Shown here one piece after another: positions 12,505 through 57,707 of a stretch of 64,000 nt of DNA (position 1 is its first letter; the number at the start of each line of letters is the position of its first letter). The stretch covers positions 1 to 64,000 of the forward strand of contig JAISRZ010000084.1 of the NCBI GenBank assembly GCA_031273455.1. Direction: 5' to 3'. Below the pieces are notes generated by a model. It was not told the origin of the DNA, did no database searches, and was given only the letters and a program-made list of their open reading frames with translations. The position numbers and the translations under genes were made by a program. The DNA comes from Deltaproteobacteria bacterium (GTDB lineage: Bacteria; Desulfobacterota; Desulfarculia; Adiutricales; Adiutricaceae).

Positions 12505-12517
12505 TGTTAAGAGGGTT

Positions 12518-13523
12518 GTTAAAGGGTCAGTGGAGCTTGTTGGCCCGGGCGGTTCGGGCTTTGCGGTGAGGCTCATTACCCCCTAGCCTTGATAGATTAA
12601 GGCGAAGAAGGGTTGTTAAAGGGTCAATGGTTGTTGGCCAGAGCGGATCGAACTTTTCGGCGAAGCCCATTACCCCTTGCCTTGATAGGTTGAGGCGAAG
12701 AAGGGTCGTTAAAGGGTCAGTGGAGCTTGGCCGGGTGGATCGGGCTTTGCGGTGAAGCCATTATACCTAGCCTTGATAGGTTGAGGCGCAGAGGGTGGTT
12801 AAGGGTCAGTGGAGCTTGGCCGGTTGGATCGGGCTTTGCGGTGAGGCTCATTACCTCTTGCCTCGATAGATTAGGCGCAGAAGGTGGTTAAAGGTCAGTG
12901 GCGCTTGGCCAGGGCGGATCGAGCTTATCGGTAAGCCATTATCCCTAGCCTCGATAGGTTCAGGCGTAGAGGGTGGTTAAAGGGTTAGTGGAGCTTGGCC
13001 GGGCGGATCGAGCTTTTCGGTGAGGCTCATTACCCCTAGCCTTGATAGGTTCAGGCGAAGAAGGGTGGTTAAAGGGTCAATGGTTGTTGGCCGGGCGGAA
13101 CGAGCTTTTCGGTGAGGCTCATTACCCCTAGCCTTGATAGGTTCAGGCGAAGAAGGTTGTTAAAGGGTCAGTGGAGCTTGGCCGGGCGGATCGAACTTTT
13201 CGGTGAGGCTCATTACCTCTAGCCTCGATAGGTTGAGGCGCAGAAGGTGGTTAAAGGGTCAGGGGAGCTTGGCCGGGTGGCTCGGGCTTATCGGTGAGGC
13301 TCATTACCCCTAGCCTTGATAGGTTGAAGCGAAGAGGGTCGTTAAAGGGTCAGCGCTTGTTGGCCAGAGCGGATCGGGCTTCGCGGTGAAGCCATTACCC
13401 TTAGCCTGGATAGATTAGGGCGAAGAAGGTGGTTAAAGGGTCAGCGCTTGTTGGCCGGGCGGATCGGGCTTTGCGGTGAGGCTCATTATCCCTAGCCTCG
13501 ATAGGTTGAGGCGAAGAAGGGTT
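12518..13523. repeat. Tandem array of eleven units of about 91 bp, each with a small hairpin
   Basis: The landmark GTTAAAGGGTCA recurs at 12518, 12615, 12708, 12798, 12887, 12976, 13068, 13159, 13250, 13341 and 13432 (spacings 89-97). Each unit contains GGCCGGGCGGATCGGGCTT-like, GGTGAGGCTCATTACC-like and GCCT-YGATAGGTT-SAGGC segments. The last forms a GCCT/AGGC hairpin, extended to GCCTC/GAGGC in some units and with a G-T wobble in others. Confidence 0.9.
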
Positions 13524-17460: not shown

Positions 17461-17691
17461 TGGCCAGGAACTGAAGGGAACCATGAGGGAATAGAGCCTA
17501 TTAGATAACTGAGCCACAGCCATACCTCGGAACCCCCCCGGTGAACCCCAGTTGGCCGGAGTCGGTCATTAAGGACCAAGCCTTGAAGGTTGGGTTAAAA
17601 GGCTGGAATAGCCCCCTGTGGGTTAAGAGCCAGCCAGTGTTAGGCCATCCTCTTGGGGCGGTCTGAGGCTTAAATTTAGCCGTTTTTTGGG

Positions 17692-18331
17692 GACAAACTT
17701 AGCCGTCAACTCTTGGACAAACTTAGCCGTCAACTCTTGGACAAACTTAGCCGTCAACTCTTGGACAAACTTAGCCGACAACTCTCGGACAAACTTAGCC
17801 GTCAAATGGCGGACAAACTTAGCCGTCAACTCTCGGACAAACTTAGCCGTCAACTCTTGGACAAACTTAGCCGTCAAATGGCGGACAAACGAAGCCGGAC
17901 ACTGGCGGACAAACGAAGCCGGACACTGGCGGACAAACGAAGTCGGACACTGGCGGACAAACGAAGTCGGACACTGGCGGACAAACGAAGTCGGACACTG
18001 GCGGACAAACGAAGCCGGACACTGGCGGACAAACTTAGCCGTCAAATGGTGGACAAACTAAGCCGTCAAATGGCGGACAAACTTAACCGACAAATGGCGG
18101 ACAAAATAAGCCGTCAAATGGCGGACAAAATTAGCCGTCAAATGGCGGACAAAATTAGCCGTCAAATGGTGGACAAACGAAATCGTCAACTGGCGGACAA
18201 AATTAGCCGTCAACTGGCGGACAAAATTAGCCGTCAAATGGCGGACAAACTAAGCTGTCAAATGGCGGACAAACTAAGTTGGCCACTATCGGACAAGTAA
18301 AGTAGACAACTGTTGGACAAACGAAGTCGGC
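17692..18331. repeat. Tandem array of 26 exact-length 24-bp units
   Basis: GACAAACTTAGCCGTCAA-type units recur every 24 bases from 17692 to 18316 (26 intervals, 624 bases, no indels), with a partial copy at the end. Subfamilies are clustered: ACTCTTG-ending units first, then GAAGCCGGACACTGGCG-type, then ATGGCG-ending units, indicating successive local expansions. Because the period is divisible by three and contains no stop in several frames, long open frames appear on both strands, for example 17713-18300 on the plus strand with an octapeptide of the Asp-Lys-Leu-Ser-Arg-Gln type. That frame has only a TTG start, no ribosome site and a stop just upstream, so coding is doubtful. Confidence 0.92.
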
Positions 18332-35576: not shown

Positions 35577-36896
35577 TTAACCTATCTGATAGTATTTAAA
35601 CCCAATTTTTTCTATTTGTATTTTATTATACTGATTTCTTCCATCGAAAATAATATGTTGTTTCATTAATTTTATCATTTCATCAAAATCAGGACAGGAA
35701 AATTCTTTCCATTCAGTGATTAAAAGAAGCGCGTCTACACTTTTTATCGCGTCATATTTACTATTATAGTATTCTATATTATAATTATTTTTAAAATAGT
35801 ATTTTTTTGCTATTTCAATTGATTTAGGGTCATAAACTTTTAATTTAGCTCCTAAAGAAGTAAGTTTATTGATAATCTCAATTGACGGAGCTTCTCGCAT
35901 GTCATCAGTGCCAGGTTTGAACGCCAATCCCCAAATTCCCAGACAAATATGGTTTAACTTAGCTCCGAAGCGCTTTATAACTTTCTCAGCTAGAACTAAT
36001 TTTTGGTTTTGGTTGACAAGCTCCACAGATTCAAGAAGTCGCGGTGTGTACCCGTTTTCATTAGCGGTGTGGATCAATGCCTGAACGTCTTTGGGGAAAC
36101 AACTACCGCCATAGCCGCAACCAGGGTAAATATAAGAATATCCGATACGGGAATCGCTACCAATCCCTATACGAACTTTATTGACGTCAGCGTGGACTAT
36201 TTCGCAAATGTTAGCTATTTCATTCATAAACGAAATTTTTGTGGCTAAAAAAGCGTTTGAAGCGTACTTTGTCATTTCCGCTGAATTATTATCCATTATT
36301 AATAAATTATTGCTTTTAATTGTAAAATGAGCATATAATTCTTTCATTACAGCAATCGCATCTTCATTACTGGAGCCAATAACCACCCGATCAGGCTTTA
36401 AAAAATCGTTTAACGCGGCCCCTTCCCTTAAAAATTCAGGATTGGAAATAACATCCACTTTTAAATCTTTTTCCCGTAATTTAAGTTCAGCGTGTATTGT
36501 TTGGCGAACTAATTCGGACGTTCCAATAGGGACAGTCGATTTGTTAATTACGTACAAATTCTTTTCCGTTAAGCGACCAATTTCCTTGGCCACCTCTAAG
36601 ACATGGGAAAGATCAGCTCGTCCATCCTCCGCCTGAGGAGTGCCTACAGCTATAAAGCATAAGTCACATCGAAACAGAGCGACTTTTAGATCAGTCGTAA
36701 AAGATAGTGAGCCTTTGGATAAGTTATTCTTAATAACTTCTTCTAATCCTGGTTCATAAATAGGAAGTTTGCCGTCATTTAAGATTTCTATTTTGTTTTT
36801 ATCCGAATCAACGCAAATAACCTGGTTTCCCATTTCCGAGAACCCTGCCCCACACACGAGACCAACATACCCTGAGCCAACAACCGTTATGTTCAT
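35577..36896 (-). CDS. ugd: UDP-glucose 6-dehydrogenase
   Basis: A 439-residue cytoplasmic enzyme that oxidises UDP-glucose to UDP-glucuronate with two NAD+. It shows the NAD-binding N-terminus [55 protein letters not shown], and the catalytic cysteine in [18 protein letters not shown]-terminal [16 protein letters not shown] is typical. Its ATG overlaps the stop of the upstream decarboxylase gene (ATGA), so the two are coupled and act in sequence. Confidence 0.95.
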
Positions 36897-37843
36897 CTAA
36901 CCATCCCTCTGGAGAACAATTCGTCAAAATATTTCGCTGTGCGCCTTAAGCCTTCGGGCAACTGGATCTTGGGGGTCCAGCCTAGTTCTTTTTGAGCCAG
37001 ACTGATGTCAGGCCGTCTTTGGCGTGGATCATCCATAGGCAACGGTTTATAAATAATTTTACTTTTTTTACCGATAATATCTTGAACTAATTCAGCTAAT
37101 TCAATAATAGTAAATTCATTTGGATTTCCTATGTTTATAGGACCTGTAAAAGTATCAGATGTATTCATCATCAAAACTAAAGCATCAATTAAATCATCAC
37201 AATAACAAAAACTTCTTGTTTGTTCTCCATTCCCATAAATAGTGATGGGATGGCCTAAAAGAGCTTGCGTAACAAAATTACTGATAACACGACCATCGTC
37301 AGGATCCATTCTAGGACCGTAAGTATTGAATATTCTTACGACTTTTATTTTAATGTTGTAAAAACGGTGAAAATCAAAAAATAGCGTTTCCGCCCCTCGC
37401 TTTCCCTCGTCATAGCAAGCCCTGACGCCAATGGTATTAACCAAGCCGCGATAGCTTTCAGTTTGGGGGCTAATTTCTGGATCGCCATAAATTTCAGAAG
37501 TGGAAGCCTGGAATATTTTAGCGTTCAATCGGCGAGCCTCTTCTAAAAGGTTAAGAGAACCTAATATTGATGTTTTAAAAGTCCGAATTGGATCTTTTTG
37601 ATACTGAGGAGGGCTTGCAGGGCATGCCAAATTATAAATTTCATCAGCATCAAATTTGATTGGGTCGATTAAATCATGATAAATAAATTTAAAATTAATG
37701 TTATCAATTAAATGTGATATATTTTTCTCTTTACCTGTATATAAATTATCAATTCCAATAATATAATTTCCTAATGACATTAATTTATCACATAAATGTG
37801 AGCCTAAAAAACCTGCTACCCCTGAAATAATTATTTTTTTCAT
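36893..37843 (-). CDS. UDP-glucuronate decarboxylase (UDP-xylose synthase)
   Basis: An extended SDR of 316 residues. It has the Rossmann motif [10 protein letters not shown], the UXS-type stretch [28 protein letters not shown], the catalytic Y-x3-K in [10 protein letters not shown], and [21 protein letters not shown]. These are hallmarks of enzymes converting UDP-glucuronate to UDP-xylose. With ugd it supplies UDP-xylose from UDP-glucose. It is the first clear gene of the operon and lies about 440 nt downstream of a sigma-54-type promoter. Stop overlaps ugd. Confidence 0.93.
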
Positions 37844-38276
37844 TTTAAACGATTCTTTTCGAATATATTATTGTATAAACATAAATATTAAAGCATATAA
37901 CAATTTCTTTTAGCCAATTAAAATAATTAATCTTTAAACTAATTTTATATTTTAAAGGAGACCAATCATCACACGATGAAAATATTCTACGACTTATGAA
38001 TGCTAAATATAAGAACGCTATGCACACGGTTAAATTACTGGTGAAGCGCTCAAAAACAACGATATTTTTTTTAATTTTAGACAATAAAACTGAACTTTGG
38101 TGGTTAGATAATTTGAATTTAATGGAAGAAGGATAAAAATTTTGAAATGAATAGGTGAAATTTATAATAATATACAAAATACAGTATATTTTAATATTAT
38201 TTTTTAAATATACAAATACAGAAAAATATTGTTTAAAATAGTATTTATACTTAAGAAATTGGTTGGTTAGAGAATT
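37844..38276 (-). other. Long leader region of the uxs-ugd operon
   Basis: An AT-rich stretch between the sigma-54-type promoter and uxs. A 184-codon frame (37845-38399) covers it and extends upstream through the promoter, with no ribosome site and a composition like noncoding DNA; a shorter internal start could exist, but I see no family. If noncoding, the transcript has a leader of about 440 nt. Confidence 0.4.
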
Positions 38277-38310
38277 AGAGAGAGAGAGCGCACGCATGAA
38301 TCGTGCCAAC
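38277..38310 (-). promoter_or_regulatory. Sigma-54-type promoter followed by (CT)6 tract
   Basis: Minus strand: TTGGCACG-ATTC-ATGCG. GG at 38307-38306 and GC at 38295-38294 keep the diagnostic GG-N10-GC spacing; the -24 box is consensus and the -12 box has two mismatches (TTGCW to ATGCG). The predicted start, about 12 bases beyond the GC, falls in the CT tract at 38288-38277. Confidence 0.6.
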
Positions 38311-38399
38311 TTCATATCAGACAAATTCAGGCAACTTATAAATTGGGAACGCATCCTGGTCGGAATTCTAAGGGCTTGTCTATCTTTATATTTCATCAT

Positions 38400-39021
38400 T
38401 TTTATTAAAATAACGGCCTAAATATCAAGATTAAACATGATAAAGCCGAATAACTACCTTTGAAAACAACCAGTTTTTTGGACTTTTGGCGGAAGCGTCT
38501 GAGATAAAGAAACCTTTGTCCTGAAAAAAAACAAAGTATCAAGATCAGCTTTTTTTACATTACAGGACTTTCATTGGATTGTCAAAAGAAAGATTTTCCC
38601 TTCATCCCGACACGGAGCAACAAGATATAAAAGAGTTTTTCTAACCTCGCGGTCTTTCTCAGTTCTGTTCACATCGATGTCGCCTACTGAGCGCCTACCT
38701 TCCCCAATAGCTTAGGTAGGGAGACAACCATCTAGCCTCGCCAAGCCTCCGACACCACTTCGTTTTTTACCGCGCCACTTAGGTTTTGATAACCGCGAAG
38801 GTGGCTACCAGAGGAGTTTTGAGCTGTCGCCACAGATAAACATCGCCGGATTCATGCCTGAGCCCTCTATGGTTACCGGAGTTCTACGTCTCTTATCCTG
38901 ACTCCAAAATTGACAAGGTCCACTTACCCTTTATGATGACATATAAACAAAACAAAATATAAGCCAGAAGGTAGGGCCTTGACTTCTAGTTCTGTAGATA
39001 GGCTAAGCCTAGCCAGGCGGC
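38400..39021. other. Noncoding stretch between the sugar operon and the SGNH hydrolase gene
   Basis: About 620 bases without a supportable gene, AT-rich at the left and balanced at the right. No clear terminator for the minus-strand gene upstream was seen, and no repeats. Confidence 0.5.
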
Positions 39022-43698: not shown

Positions 43699-44205
43699 AA
43701 AGGAAGTGAGCCGTTTGCGATGGCGGAAAAGAGATCTTGTTCTTAAAGGATGTAAGCCCCTTGGCGGTCGCGGAAAAGCGACATGGTTCTTAAAGGAAGT
43801 GAGCCGCTTGGACCCCTTGGCGGTCGCGGAAAAGCGACTGGGTTCTCAAATAAAGTGAGCCACTTGGACCGCTTGACGGCGGCGGTAGAGCTACTGGGTT
43901 CTCAAATGAAGTGAGCCACTTGGACCGCTTGACGACGGAGGTAGAGCGACTGGGTTCTCAAATGAAGTAAGCCACTTGGACCGCTTGACGGCGGAGGAAA
44001 AGCGACTAAGTTCTCAAATGAAGTGAGCCACTTGGACCACTTGGCGGTCGCGGAAAAACGACTGGGTTCTCAAATGAAGTGAGCCACTTGGACCGCTTGA
44101 CGGCGGAGGTAAAGCGACTGGGTTCTCAAATGAAGTAAGCCACTTGGACGGTCGCGGAAAAGCGACCTGGTTCTTAAAGAAAGTGAGCCGCTTGGCAGTT
44201 CTTGG
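43699..44205. repeat. Tandem array of 56-bp units, nine copies
   Basis: Units of the form AAATGAAGTGAGCCACTTGG... ending GCGACTGGGTTCTC start at 43699, 43745, 43792, 43848, 43904, 43960, 44016, 44072, 44128 and 44176 (partial). Central copies are exactly 56 bases; flanking copies of 46-48 bases lack an internal GGACCGCTT-like segment. Several units contain the hairpin GGTCGC-ggaaaa-GCGACC. Confidence 0.9.
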
Positions 44206-49989: not shown

Positions 49990-51624
49990 CTATGAAGTCT
50001 TAAGACTGTCCATCTTTCGACATTCGAAAACACTATAATGATCAGTTTTATCTATTAATATAAAGTTTTTTTGAAAAGATTTTATAGTATTAGTCGAAAT
50101 TAATGTCTTTTTTATCATACTATAATCATCTAAAAACATAAAAGGAACACCACTTTTCGGAAAAATAAAATAATTTATTGAACAATTTTTTATTTTTTCA
50201 TCTAATTCAAAGTCGCTATACCCGGCTAATTTTAAATCCGCATATCCCAAATAATCAAGTTGAGATGCCCCTAAATATATTCTATTATAATATAAATATA
50301 GCAATTTAGGTTCAGTAATTCCCATCATTGCATTTGAATATTTATTATTTAAAAATTTAATTTCTTTTACTGACTGATCAGAATCTGGCCAATAACTAAT
50401 AAAAGCAAAGTAAATGAGAATTACATTAATAATGCAAATAAAAGATAATACTAAATATAATGATTGAATTATACTATGACATAATTTTATTTTTATTTCT
50501 TGAAAAAATAAATTAGGAATATATATTAATAATTTACCAAATATAAATGCATTTACTGGAATTAAAGGCATTAAATGATTAATTAAAGAACCAGATTTAG
50601 CGCATGGTATAGTTATAAGAAGCTCTAAGCATATGATAATAAATAAATTAATCTTAACTTTTTTATCAATATTTGCATGTATTATAAATAAATAAATGCT
50701 AACAATAAAAATAGGCATTAAAATAACTATTAATGTTAAAAAAGCCTTAATAAAAAGCATTAATTCGATAGTATGACTAGAAAAAAATATTAAAAGGTCA
50801 ATATACGAAAATAAAGAAATAGATTGATTAGTGAAAGGTAAAAAAATACATATTATAAAACCTACAATATAAAGCAATATATTTTTAATTTTTATTGTAT
50901 AATTGTCTGAAGCACAAAAAAAAGCAATAATTATATACATTGCTCCATGTAGCTTTAACAAAGAAGATAAAGCTGATAAAACACCGAGCAATAAGAATAC
51001 TATTCCACTATTTTTGTATCTATTTATAATAAAAATAGTCAAAGAAACTAAAAATATGAAATAAGGTTCTGCTTTTACACAATATAGCCATGTACTAATT
51101 ATTAACAAATATAATAAATAATAAAAAGGAAATTTTATAAATAATTTATTTTGTATATTTTTTTGTTGCGAATTTAAACTACATATTATAAGAAATACAA
51201 ATAAAATAAATACTATAAACGATGGTATTTTAGCAGATATATATGTTTCAATTGGCAATTTAATAAATAATAATAAAATAAGAGATATAATTGGTCCATA
51301 TAATGTAGTATTATATGGATAATACTCTCCTTTTGTGGGGTATAAAGGAATATTTTTTGATAAATTCCTTGCTCCTTCGATGAATGTTTCTTCAAATGGG
51401 ACTGAAAAACTTGGAAAAAAAATGTAAACAATTGACGACAATACAAACAAAATAAATATAATTATATAAAACTTATCAATATATTTTTGTATATTAATTA
51501 ATATATTATCTTTAATATGCAATAAGAAATATAATATCAATAAATACAAAAAAAACATAAATACAGAAAAAGAAATAAAATTCGTAAATATATATTTACA
51601 AAAAGCTAATGATATTACATTCAT
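49990..51624 (-). CDS. GT-C-like membrane glycosyltransferase (paralogue 2)
   Basis: A 544-residue paralogue of the neighbouring gene. It shares the loop SVPFEETFIEGARNLSKNIPLYP, the segment NSQQKNIQNKLF, the CVKAEPYF helix, and the C-terminal domain with AGYSDFELDEKI, INYFIFPKSGVPFM and NTIKSFQKNFILIDKTDHYSVFEC. About 12 helices are predicted. It lies 52 nt downstream of the small transporter gene, suggesting it uses a flipped polyprenyl-linked sugar. Specificity is unknown. Confidence 0.75.
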   Translation of the reverse strand: MNVISLAFCKYIFTNFISFSVFMFFLYLLILYFLLHIKDNILINIQKYIDKFYIIIFILFVLSSIVYIFFPSFSVPFEETFIEGARNLSKNIPLYPTKGEYYPYNTTLYGPIISLILLLFIKLPIETYISAKIPSFIVFILFVFLIICSLNSQQKNIQNKLFIKFPFYYLLYLLIISTWLYCVKAEPYFIFLVSLTIFIINRYKNSGIVFLLLGVLSALSSLLKLHGAMYIIIAFFCASDNYTIKIKNILLYIVGFIICIFLPFTNQSISLFSYIDLLIFFSSHTIELMLFIKAFLTLIVILMPIFIVSIYLFIIHANIDKKVKINLFIIICLELLITIPCAKSGSLINHLMPLIPVNAFIFGKLLIYIPNLFFQEIKIKLCHSIIQSLYLVLSFICIINVILIYFAFISYWPDSDQSVKEIKFLNNKYSNAMMGITEPKLLYLYYNRIYLGASQLDYLGYADLKLAGYSDFELDEKIKNCSINYFIFPKSGVPFMFLDDYSMIKKTLISTNTIKSFQKNFILIDKTDHYSVFECRKMDSLKTS

Positions 51625-51675
51625 TAAATATCCTATATTAAACTGATATATATCAATTCATTAAATAGTAAGTGT

Positions 51676-52047
51676 TTAACTAGATGAAAAGTTAAGCGAT
51701 AGGCATATTATTCCTCCAATTATTAAAATTATACCTATTGTTTTGTATATAGTAATACTCTCCTTAAATATAATATTTGATATAAAAGTTATAAAAAGAA
51801 AACCCAAGGCCGCGAAGACTGGATAGGCCACAGAAACAGGAATTTTATCCAAAGCCTTAGCAAATAGAATAACGTTAATTCCATAGAAAAACAAGCCTAA
51901 AATAAACCAATATGATGTAATCATTGGCCAAAATCCAGGCTTAGCCACTAATCTAGACTGTTTTAGAAGAAGATTCCCCAGACAAGTATTTATTCCGGCT
52001 CCAACCAATAGCAACCAAGGGAACCATTTGGCGTTTAAGAAATCCAT
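51676..52047 (-). CDS. Small EamA/SMR-type transporter, four helices
   Basis: A 123-residue, four-helix membrane protein of the drug/metabolite transporter superfamily. The stretch KIPVSVAYPVFAALGFLFITFISNIIFKE matches the conserved third-helix region of SMR and ArnE/ArnF-like proteins. ArnE/ArnF-type pairs and similar small proteins flip polyprenyl-phosphate sugars, and the setting between sugar-lipid enzymes and GT-C proteins supports that role here (inference). It overlaps the preceding epimerase gene by 13 nt. Confidence 0.8.
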   Translation of the reverse strand: MDFLNAKWFPWLLLVGAGINTCLGNLLLKQSRLVAKPGFWPMITSYWFILGLFFYGINVILFAKALDKIPVSVAYPVFAALGFLFITFISNIIFKESITIYKTIGIILIIGGIICLSLNFSSS

Positions 52048-53066
52048 TTCAATATCTTTAACATCCCTTGTTTAATCGCCCGGCGATGAGGACTTCCAAC
52101 GTTAGTGTCCTTCTTATTGAGCGTGTCTTTATGCTCTAAAAACCAGTCGTAAGACCCCTCGAACATTCTGTTATTAGAGTACTGAGGTTTCCAGCCTATT
52201 TCTAAAAGATGATTAACATCGAAAAACACGGGACGCTGATAAGTGTGATAATGATACGGTCCCAAGGGAGACAAGGACAGCTTATCCAAAACTTTTAAGG
52301 CGACCTTACTCAAACCAATAGGTAGGTGTTTAAGTCGGCTTTTGGTTCCAGCGTGACGAATCACGTTCTCTATGGCTTCCCCCATGGTCCCAAACTCGGC
52401 GGCCCCCACATTGTAGACGCCTGGCTTCTCTTGTTTTAAAGCTAACATGTAGGCGTCCATAAGGTCTAAAGCGTGGACGAATTGAAACCTGTTGTTGCCA
52501 TCGCCTATAACGTAAACATTACGGCCTTCGCTAATCCACTCAAAAAGAATCTGAAATATCCCCAGGCGACCTAAGCCTAAAATAGTTCTCGGGCGGACAA
52601 TGATTAGAGGTAAGTTAGCCAAGTCACAGACCTTCTTAACCGCCAACTCCCCTTCCATTTTGGATTGCCCATAACTTTCCACGGGACTAAACGCTGAGTC
52701 CGGGAAAATAGGGCTAATAGCGTTGCCAAAAACCGCAGAGGAACTCATATAGACAAAATAACTTACTCCAGCCTTAACCGCCTCCTCAGCCACTATACGC
52801 GAGCCATCAACGTTAACTTGCCTAAAAACGTCACCGCTTTTGGTGATAGGCACCATGGCCGCGTTATGATGTACTACATCAATATTTTTCATGGCTTGGG
52901 CCACACCATTGGTGTTACGAACATCGGCCTCAATAAATTCCACGTCAGGCGGGAGGCTTTCGTCACGCCAGATATCCAGGATTCTGACCTTTTCTCCAGT
53001 TTCTAAAAGCCTTCGAGCGACCAGATTTCCTAAATATCCACAACCACCAGTAACTAGATGCAACAT
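52035..53066 (-). CDS. NAD-dependent epimerase/dehydratase family protein
   Basis: An extended SDR of 343 residues. VTGGCGYLGNLVARRLLE binds NAD(P); the catalytic site is S-S-S (about 107-109) with Y-x3-K in ESYGQSKMEGE; RPRTILGLGRLGIF and the FQFVHALDLMDAYMLAL stretch are typical of the 3-beta-HSD/UDP-sugar epimerase groups. AAGGT lies upstream of the ATG. In this operon it may serve as the reductase half of a two-step epimerisation together with the GMC protein, or act on a nucleotide sugar. Substrate not determinable. Confidence 0.85.
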   Translation of the reverse strand: MLHLVTGGCGYLGNLVARRLLETGEKVRILDIWRDESLPPDVEFIEADVRNTNGVAQAMKNIDVVHHNAAMVPITKSGDVFRQVNVDGSRIVAEEAVKAGVSYFVYMSSSAVFGNAISPIFPDSAFSPVESYGQSKMEGELAVKKVCDLANLPLIIVRPRTILGLGRLGIFQILFEWISEGRNVYVIGDGNNRFQFVHALDLMDAYMLALKQEKPGVYNVGAAEFGTMGEAIENVIRHAGTKSRLKHLPIGLSKVALKVLDKLSLSPLGPYHYHTYQRPVFFDVNHLLEIGWKPQYSNNRMFEGSYDWFLEHKDTLNKKDTNVGSPHRRAIKQGMLKILKWIS

Positions 53067-53086
53067 TAGTTATTTTTACCTTATTA

Positions 53087-54160
53087 TCATTTAAGTAATT
53101 TGGCTCGTTCCAAAGGCCGGTCCATTAACCAGGCCACACTGCGGCGCATGCCTTCCTCTAGCTCCACTAAAGGACGGTAACCAAGTTCTTGTTCAGCTAA
53201 AGCCACAGAACAGGCGATAGTTTTATTTAGTTCAGACAGAACGTGAACTTTCTGATTATAAATCCCCGCTTTTTGTAACCCCCAGTCCACCAACCCAGCC
53301 ACATCGGAGGCGATTGAGGGTAAGCGCAACCTTTTACGCCGACACTTGATCCCAAAGTCTGTTTCTAAAACTTTTTCCACGGTATCTATTATCTCGACCA
53401 TGGAATATGGGCGGCGATCGGCCAGCCAATAAGTCTTCCCCGCCGCCTTGGGCTCTTTAGCGGCCAAGATTAGGCCTTGAGCCAGATTATCGATATAGGA
53501 CATGGAGCGTCTATTTAAGCCTCGCCCAAGTATTGGCCCCTTACCATCGCGGATCATGACGAAAAATTCGGTCTGCCGCGGCGGCTGGAATGGCCCATAG
53601 AACCAGGGAGCCCTTATGATGACCGTCTCTGGTCCGCCTTGTTGGCTTCTTTCTTTGATCCGCTGTTCCATAAGGGCCTTGGAGCGACCATAGCCCATAT
53701 AGGGATTGTAAGGCGAACTCTCGTCAAACAGATGGTCTAGATGGGGATTGTTGCCGCAAGGGGAATTCGAGGAGGTAATAATCGCCCTTTGGATTCCGGC
53801 TTTGGCGGCTTCGTCCCAGACGTTGACTGTTCCTTGGGTGTTAACGGCATAAAAATCTTTAACTTTTCTCGGGTGAATAATCCCCACGCAATGGAACAGA
53901 ATCCCGCCTTCAGCCTTATGGAAAAAGGGTTTTAGAGAATCAGGATTGGTCACATCGCCCCTAAACAGTTCTACGCCTGGGGCGATTGAGGTGAGATCAG
54001 TATCCACATCATTAGGACCCAAAAGGGCGCGCAATGAAGGGGCCGGGAAAGGTTGACCGTCAAAAATACCTGGAATCCCCTCCACTAAGGCGCGGGTGAG
54101 ACCAAGTCCCAGCCAACCAGCCGCTCCGGTCACTAATATTGGCCTATTTTCTACTGACAT
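53087..54160 (-). CDS. NAD-dependent epimerase/dehydratase family protein (second)
   Basis: An extended SDR of 357 residues. Motifs: VTGAAGWLGLGL, the SSNSP stretch in place of SSS, Y-x3-K in MGYGRSKALMEQ, RAPWFYGPFQPP and SMSYIDNLAQGLILAAKEP. It is distinct from the neighbouring SDR. It starts 11 nt after the GMC oxidoreductase gene. Possible roles are reduction of a keto intermediate made by the GMC enzyme or sugar-nucleotide epimerisation. Confidence 0.85.
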   Translation of the reverse strand: MSVENRPILVTGAAGWLGLGLTRALVEGIPGIFDGQPFPAPSLRALLGPNDVDTDLTSIAPGVELFRGDVTNPDSLKPFFHKAEGGILFHCVGIIHPRKVKDFYAVNTQGTVNVWDEAAKAGIQRAIITSSNSPCGNNPHLDHLFDESSPYNPYMGYGRSKALMEQRIKERSQQGGPETVIIRAPWFYGPFQPPRQTEFFVMIRDGKGPILGRGLNRRSMSYIDNLAQGLILAAKEPKAAGKTYWLADRRPYSMVEIIDTVEKVLETDFGIKCRRKRLRLPSIASDVAGLVDWGLQKAGIYNQKVHVLSELNKTIACSVALAEQELGYRPLVELEEGMRRSVAWLMDRPLERAKLLK

Positions 54161-54171
54161 AGGGATTTATC

Positions 54172-55680
54172 TTAACCACCCAAATAATGAGTTAAGTTGC
54201 GTCTGACAACTGTTAAAAGAGGCCCTTGAGGATTAACGCCCGGCGCCGAACAGAGGATGGAAGCGTCAGTGACGTAAAAATCGTGGTGGCCCCACAAAGC
54301 CCCCCACTGGTCGACCACGCCCAATTTTGGTGAGCCGGCCATTCTATTGGAGGATGTTAGGTGGATGCTCATCGCCTCCAACGACCCTGGCGATGGGATA
54401 GTTGGTATCTTATCCAAATCAGCGGGGCTCTCAATAGACTCCAGCCCACGGATACTGGGGTAAAGACGCTTAGCCCCGGCGGCGAATAACGCCTGGCCCA
54501 ATCGTTTAAAGGCCAAAGAAAGTGAAGCCAAATCTCTCTTAGTTAGGCTAAAACGAACTATAGGCTCATCGAATCCTGGCAAAACGGTTATAGCCCCATG
54601 ACCTTCGGGCACTATAGCGGCGTAGTAGACCGCCAAAAAGGGCCATTTTTCGCGAACGACTTCTTGGCCACGCGATTTAGTTGACATGGAGACTAACATG
54701 TAATGCGGAGAACTAATTGAGCAGCCAAAACTCATAGAAGTTCCAAACTCTTTGACCTGGTGAACCGAGACCCCTAAACCTGGATAGTTGATTTCTTGAT
54801 CGAACTGGGCAATCCACTTAACTGTGGGGTGAAGATGGAAAAATTGGCCGCTTTTAGCAGACAATCCTGAGCTTTTAAGTATGACTGAACTTCCAATAGT
54901 TCCGGCTCCCAAAAAAATTGTCTTAGCTATAAAAAAACCACGTTTTTTCTGACCGTCAGAATTAATATAACTGACTTTCACTAGCCATTTATCTTTTTTA
55001 GGCCGAATACTCTCCACCCGAGCCCCTTCAATAATCCTCGCCCCAGCTTTTCGCGCTCTGGGAAGGTAGGTTCGAACCATAGTTTGCCGTTCCCCTTCTG
55101 GCGAAGCGGAGCTAAACGACCGGTACCTAGGCACTTCAGGGCAATTCCAACCTAAGGCTTCCGCGCCAGCTTTAAGGAGAAGAGAAACTTTAGGAATAGT
55201 TCCTTCAGGGGCCAAGGAGACTTTCAAATCCTTTTCCACCGCCTCTGAGTGGACATTTAAATCAACAGGATTAAAGGAAACAAGACCGAAACGGGAGGAC
55301 CAATCCCAAATAACCCCGTCAGGTAGCCGGTGATGGAGACCGCTATTGATTTCACTACCTCCACCTAAACACCGACCTTCAACATATTGGATTAAAGGAC
55401 GACCAAGAGCGAAAGTAATTCCACCATTACGATATTTGAGCTTTAATTCATCAACGGAAAATGGTTCAATCGCCTCTAATGGCCAATAGTTACCTTCCTC
55501 TAAAACTAAAACTTCCCGACCAGCCTCGGCTAGAACGCAAGCGGCTAAACTCGCTCCTGGTCCACTGCCGATGACCACCACATCGTGATCTTCGATCTGG
55601 CCTAACTCTTTATTGGCTGGAAGGGCCAGTGGCTCATGGGACCTCAGAGAATCCATTTGATTTTCCACAATCTTGTCCAT
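54172..55680 (-). CDS. GMC-family FAD-dependent oxidoreductase
   Basis: A 502-residue flavoprotein. The N-terminal dinucleotide site is HDVVVIGSGPGASLAACVLAEAGREVLVLEEG (about 33-64); GRCLGGGSEINSGLHHRLP corresponds to the GMC signature; AKTIFLGAGTIGSSVIL is the second FAD contact; and the C-terminal NPQGPLLTVVRR is characteristic. Members oxidise alcohols or sugars. No signal peptide is seen. The start overlaps the upstream small gene (TGATG). In the operon it sits where a polyprenylphosphoryl-pentose oxidase would be expected; that role is inferred. Confidence 0.88.
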   Translation of the reverse strand: MDKIVENQMDSLRSHEPLALPANKELGQIEDHDVVVIGSGPGASLAACVLAEAGREVLVLEEGNYWPLEAIEPFSVDELKLKYRNGGITFALGRPLIQYVEGRCLGGGSEINSGLHHRLPDGVIWDWSSRFGLVSFNPVDLNVHSEAVEKDLKVSLAPEGTIPKVSLLLKAGAEALGWNCPEVPRYRSFSSASPEGERQTMVRTYLPRARKAGARIIEGARVESIRPKKDKWLVKVSYINSDGQKKRGFFIAKTIFLGAGTIGSSVILKSSGLSAKSGQFFHLHPTVKWIAQFDQEINYPGLGVSVHQVKEFGTSMSFGCSISSPHYMLVSMSTKSRGQEVVREKWPFLAVYYAAIVPEGHGAITVLPGFDEPIVRFSLTKRDLASLSLAFKRLGQALFAAGAKRLYPSIRGLESIESPADLDKIPTIPSPGSLEAMSIHLTSSNRMAGSPKLGVVDQWGALWGHHDFYVTDASILCSAPGVNPQGPLLTVVRRNLTHYLGG

Positions 55681-56036
55681 CAGGCGGATTTCTGGGTCCG
55701 GCCTAAAGCCTCAAAAAGATAAAATTGAACAAAAACTCGATGGAACCTAATAAACTCACGAGTTGGCCCAGGCAAAACCTCAAAAAATCTGACAACCTTA
55801 GCCCGAAGCTCTGGGGTCAGGCGATTAAACCAGCCTAAACCAATTGGAAGAGCGAGAAATTGCATGATATACGCTAAAACTATAAAAGGCGGTTTAAGCC
55901 AGTCTGGAAGGCTACGAATCTGAGCTAATACAAAGCGCTCACATCCACAATAATCCACCGATCCTGGCAGTTGATTAGCCGTAATCTGAGCCAATCCCCA
56001 AGTTAGAGCCGATGATACCGCCAAAAGGTTTTTCAT
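55680..56036 (-). CDS. Protein of unknown function between UbiA and GMC genes
   Basis: A 118-residue protein from ATG 56036, selected because ATGA overlaps the UbiA stop; the longer frame to 56090 would overlap it more and has no site. It contains one or two hydrophobic segments (WLKPPFIVLAYIMQFLALPIGLGWF) and a basic, aromatic C-terminus (PTREFIRFHRVFVQFYLFEALG). Tight coupling on both sides suggests a partner of the GMC enzyme or of the prenyltransferase. I do not recognise a family. Confidence 0.65.
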   Translation of the reverse strand: MKNLLAVSSALTWGLAQITANQLPGSVDYCGCERFVLAQIRSLPDWLKPPFIVLAYIMQFLALPIGLGWFNRLTPELRAKVVRFFEVLPGPTREFIRFHRVFVQFYLFEALGRTQKSA

Positions 56037-57463
56037 AGTCCAACCGTCGCTATAAAGTAAATGAGAAGACCGAGACCCAAACTGACCCAACTGACCTTGT
56101 CTTTCAGAGTAAAGAAGACAGGATCATATGGCATTTTACCCTCATTAGCAAGTTTCATTAATCTAACTAACCAGTAAAATAAAATAGGACAGAAAAATAA
56201 TAATATCTGTGGATTTTGATAACGCTTTAAAGCTGTTATATCACCTACATAAATAGCTAATGTAAGTACAGCGCAACAAATACAACCACTAGTTATTGTT
56301 TGAAATAATATAATATCTTTTACAGTATAAGGTCTTCGTGAATTATGTTCAATTATTCCCGCTGTGATATTACTTACCTCACCTAATCTTTTTATCAAAC
56401 TGAGAGCTGTAAACACAAAAAAAGAAAAAGACAGTAGCCATTGCGAAATTTCAAGATCAATAGCTTCACCACCAGCAAAAATCCTGACACAATACAACAA
56501 AACAAGGACTATTATATCAATAAAAATAATGTTTTTTAATTTTAAAGAATATATAAGAGAACTAATCAAATATAATATACCTAAAATAATAAATCTATGC
56601 CTTAATGGCCAAGCTAAAATCAAACTACCCATCAACGCTATTAAGAACAAAATCGCCCCTTTTGGCAGGTCCAAAGCTCCAGAGGCGAAAGGGCGAAGTC
56701 GTTTTTCTGGATGACAACGATCGGAACTAATGTCCAATAAGTCATTTAAAATGTAGCCAGAGGAAGAAAAACAACAAAAAGAAAAAAAGGCTAAAACAAC
56801 TTGATTTAACGCGGCCAAAGTAAAAAGATGGCCCATTAGTAAGGGAACAAAAAGAAGGATATTCTTGGCCCACTGATGAATTCTAAGCGCATGAAAAATA
56901 GACCTAATAGTAAAAAATCGAGAGTGGTTAGAGGCTATATTTGTGACTTTTTGGTTGACTGACTGAGCCTTCACCGCCAAACTATGATCGCCTACGACCA
57001 CCGCCTCACTAGCCCGCCGCCAAACTTCAAGATCAGCGGAACTGTTTCCCACGTAAACAAAACCGCCCTCGCCAAAACGTCTGGCCAATTCTGCGGCCTT
57101 AGCCTTTCCTTTAAGATTATTCCGCCCATCTGACGCAATAAAACCGGTGAAAAAATCAAAGTGGTCTACAACTTTTTTCGCCAGGAACTCATCAGCCGCT
57201 GTGGCCAACCAAACCTCTTGGTTATAATTTCGATATTCTTTAGCTAATTGTATAACCGCCTCATTCCAAGGCAATATGTCCAGATCCAATTGAGTCGCGT
57301 GAGCCAACCGGCTTTTGAATGCCACCCTACCAGACAAAAGCCAAAACAAGGGGGCTAAATGGCCTTGAGAAATAGTTTTAAAAAATAATTCCCACAAGGA
57401 ATCCGTTTTTAAAAGGGTCCCATCAAGATCAACGACCAAAACATGTAAGCCATTGGAGTTCAT
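56033..57463 (-). CDS. HAD phosphatase-UbiA prenyltransferase fusion (DPPR synthase-like)
   Basis: Residues 1-185 are a HAD-type domain: VVDLDGTLLKTDSL (nucleophile Asp), then GFIASDGRNNLKGKAKA and VYVGNSSADLEVW. Residues 195-476 are a UbiA membrane enzyme of nine helices with NDLLDISSDRCHPEKRLRPFASG, the form found in decaprenyl-phosphate phosphoribose synthase (N-D-x2-D-x3-D-x2-H-P-x-K-x2-R-P). Known relatives transfer 5-phosphoribose from PRPP to polyprenyl phosphate; the attached phosphatase would remove the 5-phosphate. The first gene of the operon, 230 nt downstream of a sigma-54-type promoter. The 3' half is notably AT-rich. Confidence 0.88.
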   Translation of the reverse strand: MNSNGLHVLVVDLDGTLLKTDSLWELFFKTISQGHLAPLFWLLSGRVAFKSRLAHATQLDLDILPWNEAVIQLAKEYRNYNQEVWLATAADEFLAKKVVDHFDFFTGFIASDGRNNLKGKAKAAELARRFGEGGFVYVGNSSADLEVWRRASEAVVVGDHSLAVKAQSVNQKVTNIASNHSRFFTIRSIFHALRIHQWAKNILLFVPLLMGHLFTLAALNQVVLAFFSFCCFSSSGYILNDLLDISSDRCHPEKRLRPFASGALDLPKGAILFLIALMGSLILAWPLRHRFIILGILYLISSLIYSLKLKNIIFIDIIVLVLLYCVRIFAGGEAIDLEISQWLLSFSFFVFTALSLIKRLGEVSNITAGIIEHNSRRPYTVKDIILFQTITSGCICCAVLTLAIYVGDITALKRYQNPQILLFFCPILFYWLVRLMKLANEGKMPYDPVFFTLKDKVSWVSLGLGLLIYFIATVGL

Positions 57464-57533: not shown

Positions 57534-57566
57534 ACAAAAAAACCCATAGCCAAAACGGTATGGGTT
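57534..57566 (-). terminator. Intrinsic terminator in the leader of the HAD-UbiA operon
   Basis: On the minus strand AACCCATA-N10-TATGGGTT is followed by TTTTTGTTTT-like sequence. It lies about 110-150 nt after the predicted sigma-54 start and 70 nt before the first gene. Confidence 0.6.

Positions 57567-57641: not shown

Positions 57642-57707
<66 letters not shown>

Follow-up and report, generated by a model that had tools for sequence, protein, structure and literature searches.

The window analysed here, a 64,000-nt stretch of DNA, carries on its minus strand two copies of a module in which a putative sigma-54 promoter is accompanied by a CT microsatellite. The copy at 38.3 kb, in the segment originally flagged, lies 466 nt 5′ of a gene for an NAD-dependent epimerase resembling UDP-xylose synthase (316 aa; 36893..37843, minus strand), the first gene of an operon whose second gene encodes a UDP-glucose/GDP-mannose dehydrogenase (35577..36896, minus strand). 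Its -24/-12 box, TTGGCACGATTCATGC (38294..38309, minus strand), was read from the sequence and aligned with nine other copies, the usual form in this genome being TTGGCACGATTCTTGC. Between box and tract stands a GTGCG interruption (38289..38293, minus strand) that is absent from nearly all other copies; the (CT)6 tract itself (38277..38288, minus strand) is short and displaced, and it is followed by the segment AATTCTCTAACCAACCAATTTCTTAAG (38250..38276, minus strand), in which the motif TAACYAAC also occurs in 5 of 59 copies of the genus, partly paralogues, compared with 0.3 in shuffles. This copy has TTGGCACGATTC in common with the form most frequent in the genome and differs from it by ATGC in place of TTGC, by the GTGCG insertion and by its six units. 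The ATGC is its one mismatch to the sigma-54 consensus, and because the GC dinucleotide is retained at the correct spacing, the -12 change does not establish loss of function; the lost abutment of the tract to the box is more striking. Six units are just at the threshold for a simple sequence repeat (SSR; 6 or more dinucleotide units, a cut-off taken from PMC6321876), and a simple terminator scan of 37500-39000 returned no match. The 38.3 kb copy is probably a decayed member of the family described below, shortened and mutated at -12.

In the copy at 57.7 kb, the sigma-54 box TTGGCACGGTTTTTGC (57691..57706, minus strand) is directly abutted by a (CT)23 microsatellite that starts at the C of the -12 GC (57646..57691, minus strand; an AG tract on the plus strand) and is succeeded by ACTTACTTACTTTAACCAACTCTTACG. 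Transcription is predicted to start inside this tract. Between the tract and the first gene, which encodes a HAD-UbiA prenyltransferase fusion (476 aa; 56033..57463, minus strand), lies a hairpin resembling an intrinsic terminator, AACCCATACCGTTTTGGCTATGGGTT, followed by a T run (57541..57566, minus strand; -11.2 kcal/mol). The operon at 49990-57463 comprises the HAD-UbiA gene together with genes for a GMC oxidoreductase, two epimerases and a small flippase-like SMR/EamA-like protein, a set that, judged from its Pfam domains, is reminiscent of the polyprenyl-phosphate pentose pathway.

Exact TTGGCACGNNNNNTGC occurs in the 64-kb window at these two sites only. Tract matches number 22 compared with 0.4 expected, and long CT tracts are found only at the two copies. 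An earlier reading of the sequence alone had proposed that they are homologous modules in the same orientation, with 6 and 23 units and an altered -12 box at 38.3 kb; all of these observations hold, the corresponding minus-strand stretches being 38309-38277 and 57706-57646. It had further described a shared TAAGA-TTGGTT flank. The flank is indeed present after the tract in both copies, as TAACCAAC on the minus strand, but the likeness is weak, since the downstream alignment score was reached by 48 of 500 shuffles over the first 45 nt and by 32 of 300 over 200 nt; upstream (250 nt), 231 of 300 shuffles reached it. Thus, box and tract align, and the flanks resemble each other about as much as shuffled DNA does. 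Against this background, the interpretation offered at the time, that a single duplicated cassette ties both sugar operons to one activator, retains very little probability. It draws on the shared orientation, the position of each module 5′ of a surface-sugar operon and the common TAACCAAC; yet the upstream regions of the two copies are unrelated while other copies do share theirs, and, at an equal cut-off, significant matches link each window copy to other copies but not to its partner. On these upstream comparisons, the one-activator reading appears largely refuted, and a duplicated pair gives way to two of about 17 copies in the genome, with relatives in other genera and phyla.

These copies were found by a motif search of the 4.24-Mb genome to which the window belongs (94% complete), in which a reversed-pattern control gave 0 matches; the genome-wide search proposed with the sequence-only reading thus yielded some 15 further copies. 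We defined a sigma-54 promoter by GG at -24 and GC at -12 at fixed spacing (YTGGCACG-N4-TTGC). Of 24 strict boxes in this genome (reversed control, 0), 14 carry a tract. Among the ten tractless boxes (including L224, L228 and L230; L227 and L239; L235 and L238), three are related (TTGGCATGAATATTGC) and two have irregular pyrimidine-rich DNA after them. Our scan of GTDB representatives included the promoter in its query, which biases counts on the loci from that scan; the unbiased test is a search for the CT tract alone, with no promoter in the query. By this search, all 16 C-initial tracts of (CT)7.5 or more in the genome directly follow the G of a -12 box; one of them, in contig C141, forms the latter part of an interrupted array. 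One further long tract, T-initial and situated at the other end of contig C31, has no visible promoter within the only ~50 nt of upstream sequence assembled. Across loci, a correctly spaced -24/-12 box scoring 13-15 of 15 precedes 142 of 144 G-preceded tracts, and the two tracts without it are second halves of interrupted arrays. Tract length in the tracts examined ranges from 8 to 49 units, with a median of 20. At the level of sequence, both the existence of the family and the coupling to sigma-54 promoters are firmly established. The genome also encodes RpoN, whose DNA-binding domain lies on contig C151. An activator gene had been suggested as a target for searching, and about nine activators are encoded, with 11 matches to PF00158, nine of them strong.

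The coupling extends beyond this genome. In the tract-alone search, the tract is preceded by G in 41/41, 22/22 and 14/14 cases in three congeners and in 7/7, 4/4 and 6/6 cases in three Treponema/Spirochaetaceae metagenome-assembled genomes (MAGs); the same held in Desulfovibrio, Chitinispirillales and one Nitrospirae genome, with exceptions in two spirochaete genomes (3 of 13 and 2 of 4 tracts). Among the genomes compared, which are species-level representatives, the strict pattern occurs in all seven of the genus (the window's own included), in 2 of 18 other members of the family and in none of 15 outside it. At least 114 stretches with the pattern were recovered from GTDB species representatives by a query that included the promoter, and nearly all of the matches listed are MAGs titled Deltaproteobacteria, Treponema/Spirochaetaceae/Spirochaetia, Desulfovibrio or Chitinispirillales. 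To judge from their sample codes, these MAGs apparently come from termite-gut surveys such as PMC9137090; the window's genome, too, is taken to be that of a termite-gut bacterium. In one spirochaete family, 37 of 150 sampled genomes carry the element. The tract of spirochaetes is often followed by a different segment, about CATAATACTCACCGTCATCTTT, which is repeated in some leaders (e.g. L072, L082, L131 and L163). A mobile or phage origin was considered and set aside, as the virus collection IMG/VR contained no match.

Both parts of the module persist over considerable distances. In orthologous pairs from different species, with 48-75% protein identity (e.g. 75%, 71%, 64% and 60%), box and tract are kept in both members, and global alignment of the noncoding DNA around them gives ~50-60% identity, which is near saturation. 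The number of units is far less stable. It differs in 54 of 64 related pairs, which are not independent of one another, and the arrays are nearly all perfect, only 5 of 142 being interrupted. Two copies of the window's genome, on contigs C69 (L189) and C43 (L192), are 97% identical upstream and 98% identical downstream and have 11 and 27 units, respectively. This cassette of ~575 bp (-420 to +155) stands 5′ of an autotransporter gene in one case and of a TonB receptor gene in the other; near-identical flanks before unlike genes imply that it has moved between unrelated surface genes. In addition, sequences tend to end at the tracts: 4 of 15 tracts in this genome are 150 bp or less from a contig end (0.17 expected, P=2e-5), and across loci 30 of 144 are no more than 200 nt from where the fetched sequence stops, which for a few loci is the end of the fetched piece; in seven of these the sequence stops inside the tract or 1 nt past it. 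Length polymorphism in the population would cause such contig breaks, and similar cassettes also could. Together, the differences between paralogues and the contig ends at tracts suggest that length may vary within populations. Loss of mismatch repair was rejected as the cause, MutS being present.

The genes behind the elements are far from random. The next ORF is on the same strand in 90 of 96 evaluable elements (binomial 1.5e-21 on 90/95). In the window's genome, these genes encode a TpsA adhesin, four autotransporters, a PilW-like protein, a TonB receptor plug protein and a DUF4384 secreted protein, in addition to the two window operons; in congeners they include TonB receptors, FecCD, ShlB, WaaY, AT3-SGNH, GSCFA and GT2 as well as a DNA methyltransferase with an Mrr domain, and in spirochaetes many lipoprotein genes. 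The proposal that the module precedes cell-exterior genes is thereby borne out. Long simple repeats of six or more dinucleotide units are thus found in the promoters of surface or restriction-modification genes, and the downstream repertoire is typical of SSR contingency loci (PMC6321876, PMC7302503, PMC8262952), and it agrees with the proposal that the bacterial exterior is the theme of sigma-54 (PMC3162934). DNA methyltransferase genes behind elements at L263:520-2211 (plus strand; N6_N4_Mtase with Mrr) and at L124 (DUF1156) are possible phasevarions.

Transcription from sigma-54 promoters starts ~12 nt past the -12 C, which places the start inside the tract. We consider it probable, on the strength of these sequence features, that an RpoN promoter with a hypervariable CT microsatellite as its initially transcribed sequence serves as a contingency-locus device for phase or rheostat control. 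The pure (CT)n that extends onward from just after the -12 GC would constitute the DNA that is melted and initially transcribed. Slipped-strand mispairing would alter n while leaving promoter spacing unchanged, and every length variant would keep an intact promoter and give an mRNA whose 5′ (CU)n is longer or shorter; this length may act on promoter escape, RNA stability or read-through of the leader. The outcome would be cell-to-cell variation of surface proteins, LPS/glycan enzymes and DNA methyltransferases, as in contingency loci; the dependence of expression on length is what we infer here. One further step is suggested for the window's genome, where most intact leaders have a terminator after the tract: a strong intrinsic terminator lies at most 150 nt past the tract in 8 of 11 leaders, compared with 2% in shuffles, and the stems differ in sequence and keep their complementarity, so that attenuation is probably added there. 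Such terminators are rare in two congeners (3/23 and 0/6), and an attenuator was accordingly rejected as a core feature of the family. Cis anti-Shine-Dalgarno pairing of (CU)n was likewise discarded as a general rule, since putting (CA)n in place of the tract changes pairing of the ribosome-binding site only from 0.574 to 0.575.

The presence of MutS counts against the contingency-locus reading, and so does the invariable CT unit with its constant abutment to -12, which a pure slippage control would not require. This constancy favours instead a (CU)n leader that is a fixed recognition element for Rho (a YC-rich, rut-like RNA), ribosomal protein S1, an antitermination complex or another RNA-binding protein, with differences in length as tolerated noise: the unit is always CT, on the transcript strand, directly after -12 and in several phyla, and the many leader terminators of the window's genome make control of read-through plausible. 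A pyrimidine-rich site would, however, tolerate irregularity, whereas the arrays are almost all perfect; n differs widely among near-identical copies, and the scarcity of terminators in the two congeners weakens the case from read-through. We regard a fixed recognition element as rather unlikely. Less credit still is due to the notion that the tracts are a functionless by-product, in which sigma-54 closed complexes or transcription from strong promoters make the TTGCTCTC seed a hotspot of replication slippage, so that tracts grow. The seed TTGCTCT is indeed near the sigma-54 consensus, and tract length varies freely; yet long tracts are kept in orthologous copies after their flanks have saturated, the matches listed come mostly from gut symbionts and are not distributed over the sigma-54 promoters of all bacteria, and the downstream genes are strongly non-random, which together make a neutral origin improbable.

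Still more doubtful are stand-alone small RNAs driven by sigma-54, comparable to Qrr or CrcZ, in which (CU)n would act as a seed pairing with GA-rich ribosome-binding sites. The sigma-54 promoter and a terminator do lie within ~100-165 nt of each other in 8 of 11 copies of the window's genome, with complementarity kept in unlike stems. Against this, a same-strand gene nearly always comes next, which does not bespeak an independent transcript; terminators are exceptional outside this genome; Hfq was not detected in it at 94% completeness, although control proteins were found; replacing the tract leaves pairing of the ribosome-binding site unchanged (a comparison of cis pairing only); and no Rfam family matches an element. 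Returning to the contingency-locus reading, we tentatively extend it as follows, with less confidence than in the device itself. The design across phyla, largely confined to termite-gut symbionts, might consist of sigma-54 promoters with an expandable CT start region that spread by transfer or convergence and are read either through a shared factor that binds (CU)n or through RNA polymerase slipping by dinucleotides at initiation, repeat length tuning the whole surface-gene set.

Several known systems resemble parts of this arrangement. One is hmw1A/hmw2A of Haemophilus influenzae, in which the number of 7-bp repeats in the promoter region tunes the mRNA level (PMC8262952): there, too, a tandem repeat lies between promoter elements and the gene of a two-partner-secretion adhesin, as does the repeat before TpsA here, but the repeat is a heptanucleotide at one or two loci of one species, unlike the sigma-54-coupled CT set of 10-40 loci. 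In Moraxella catarrhalis, transcript levels of uspA2 and modO depend on the number of AGAT and CAACG repeats 5′ of the ORF (PMC7302503), similarly an SSR upstream of a surface protein or DNA methyltransferase gene, although with other units, no tie to sigma-54 and no abutment to a -12 box. Campylobacter phasomes comprise many hypermutable loci per genome for surface glycans and restriction-modification, as the present family does; their SSRs are mostly poly-G/C (91%, with 77% of these tracts in ORFs), and dinucleotides are few (PMC6321876). Francke et al. (2011) proposed sigma-54 as a controller of the bacterial exterior, with promoters before lipoprotein, LPS and polysaccharide genes; they describe no microsatellite, and the word "repeat" is absent from the main text (PMC3162934). 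Finally, the TAACTGA direct repeats of marine Beggiatoaceae (PMC4679880) are one short repeat common to many genes and distant lineages, with possible control at the RNA level, but are heptamers next to start codons without promoter coupling. In the open-access literature searched, we found no description of a sigma-54/CT-microsatellite architecture.

The module fuses an alternative sigma factor and one microsatellite into a reusable unit, present at up to ~40 loci per genome in several phyla of apparently one habitat. Most known contingency loci come from human pathogens; such loci are scattered and have their repeats in ORFs or between promoter boxes. If length tunes expression, termite gut symbionts would generate surface diversity via a common promoter design, and the module offers a simple test of the effect of (CT)n at the transcript start on sigma-54 initiation.

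Some further observations concern the surroundings of the elements. Several copies (L186, L189, L191, L192, L182 and L190) have in common, at about -87 and -210 from the box, upstream palindromes resembling CTGAT-N4-ATCAG as well as TTTGACAAA...GGGCGCTAAATTAC; these are candidate activator sites. The palindrome CTGATnnnnATCAG was rejected as a universal enhancer, being exact only in contigs C141 and C142, at -87, and is a lead only. No Rfam family or riboswitch was matched in the window or the leaders, and near one element a selenocysteine tRNA gene (Rfam RF01852) is found at L191:4796-4888 (minus strand). The window also contains long tandem arrays unrelated to the CT tracts, at 12509-13520 (91 bp x 11), 17691-18275 (24 bp x 24) and 43760-44149 (56 bp x 7).
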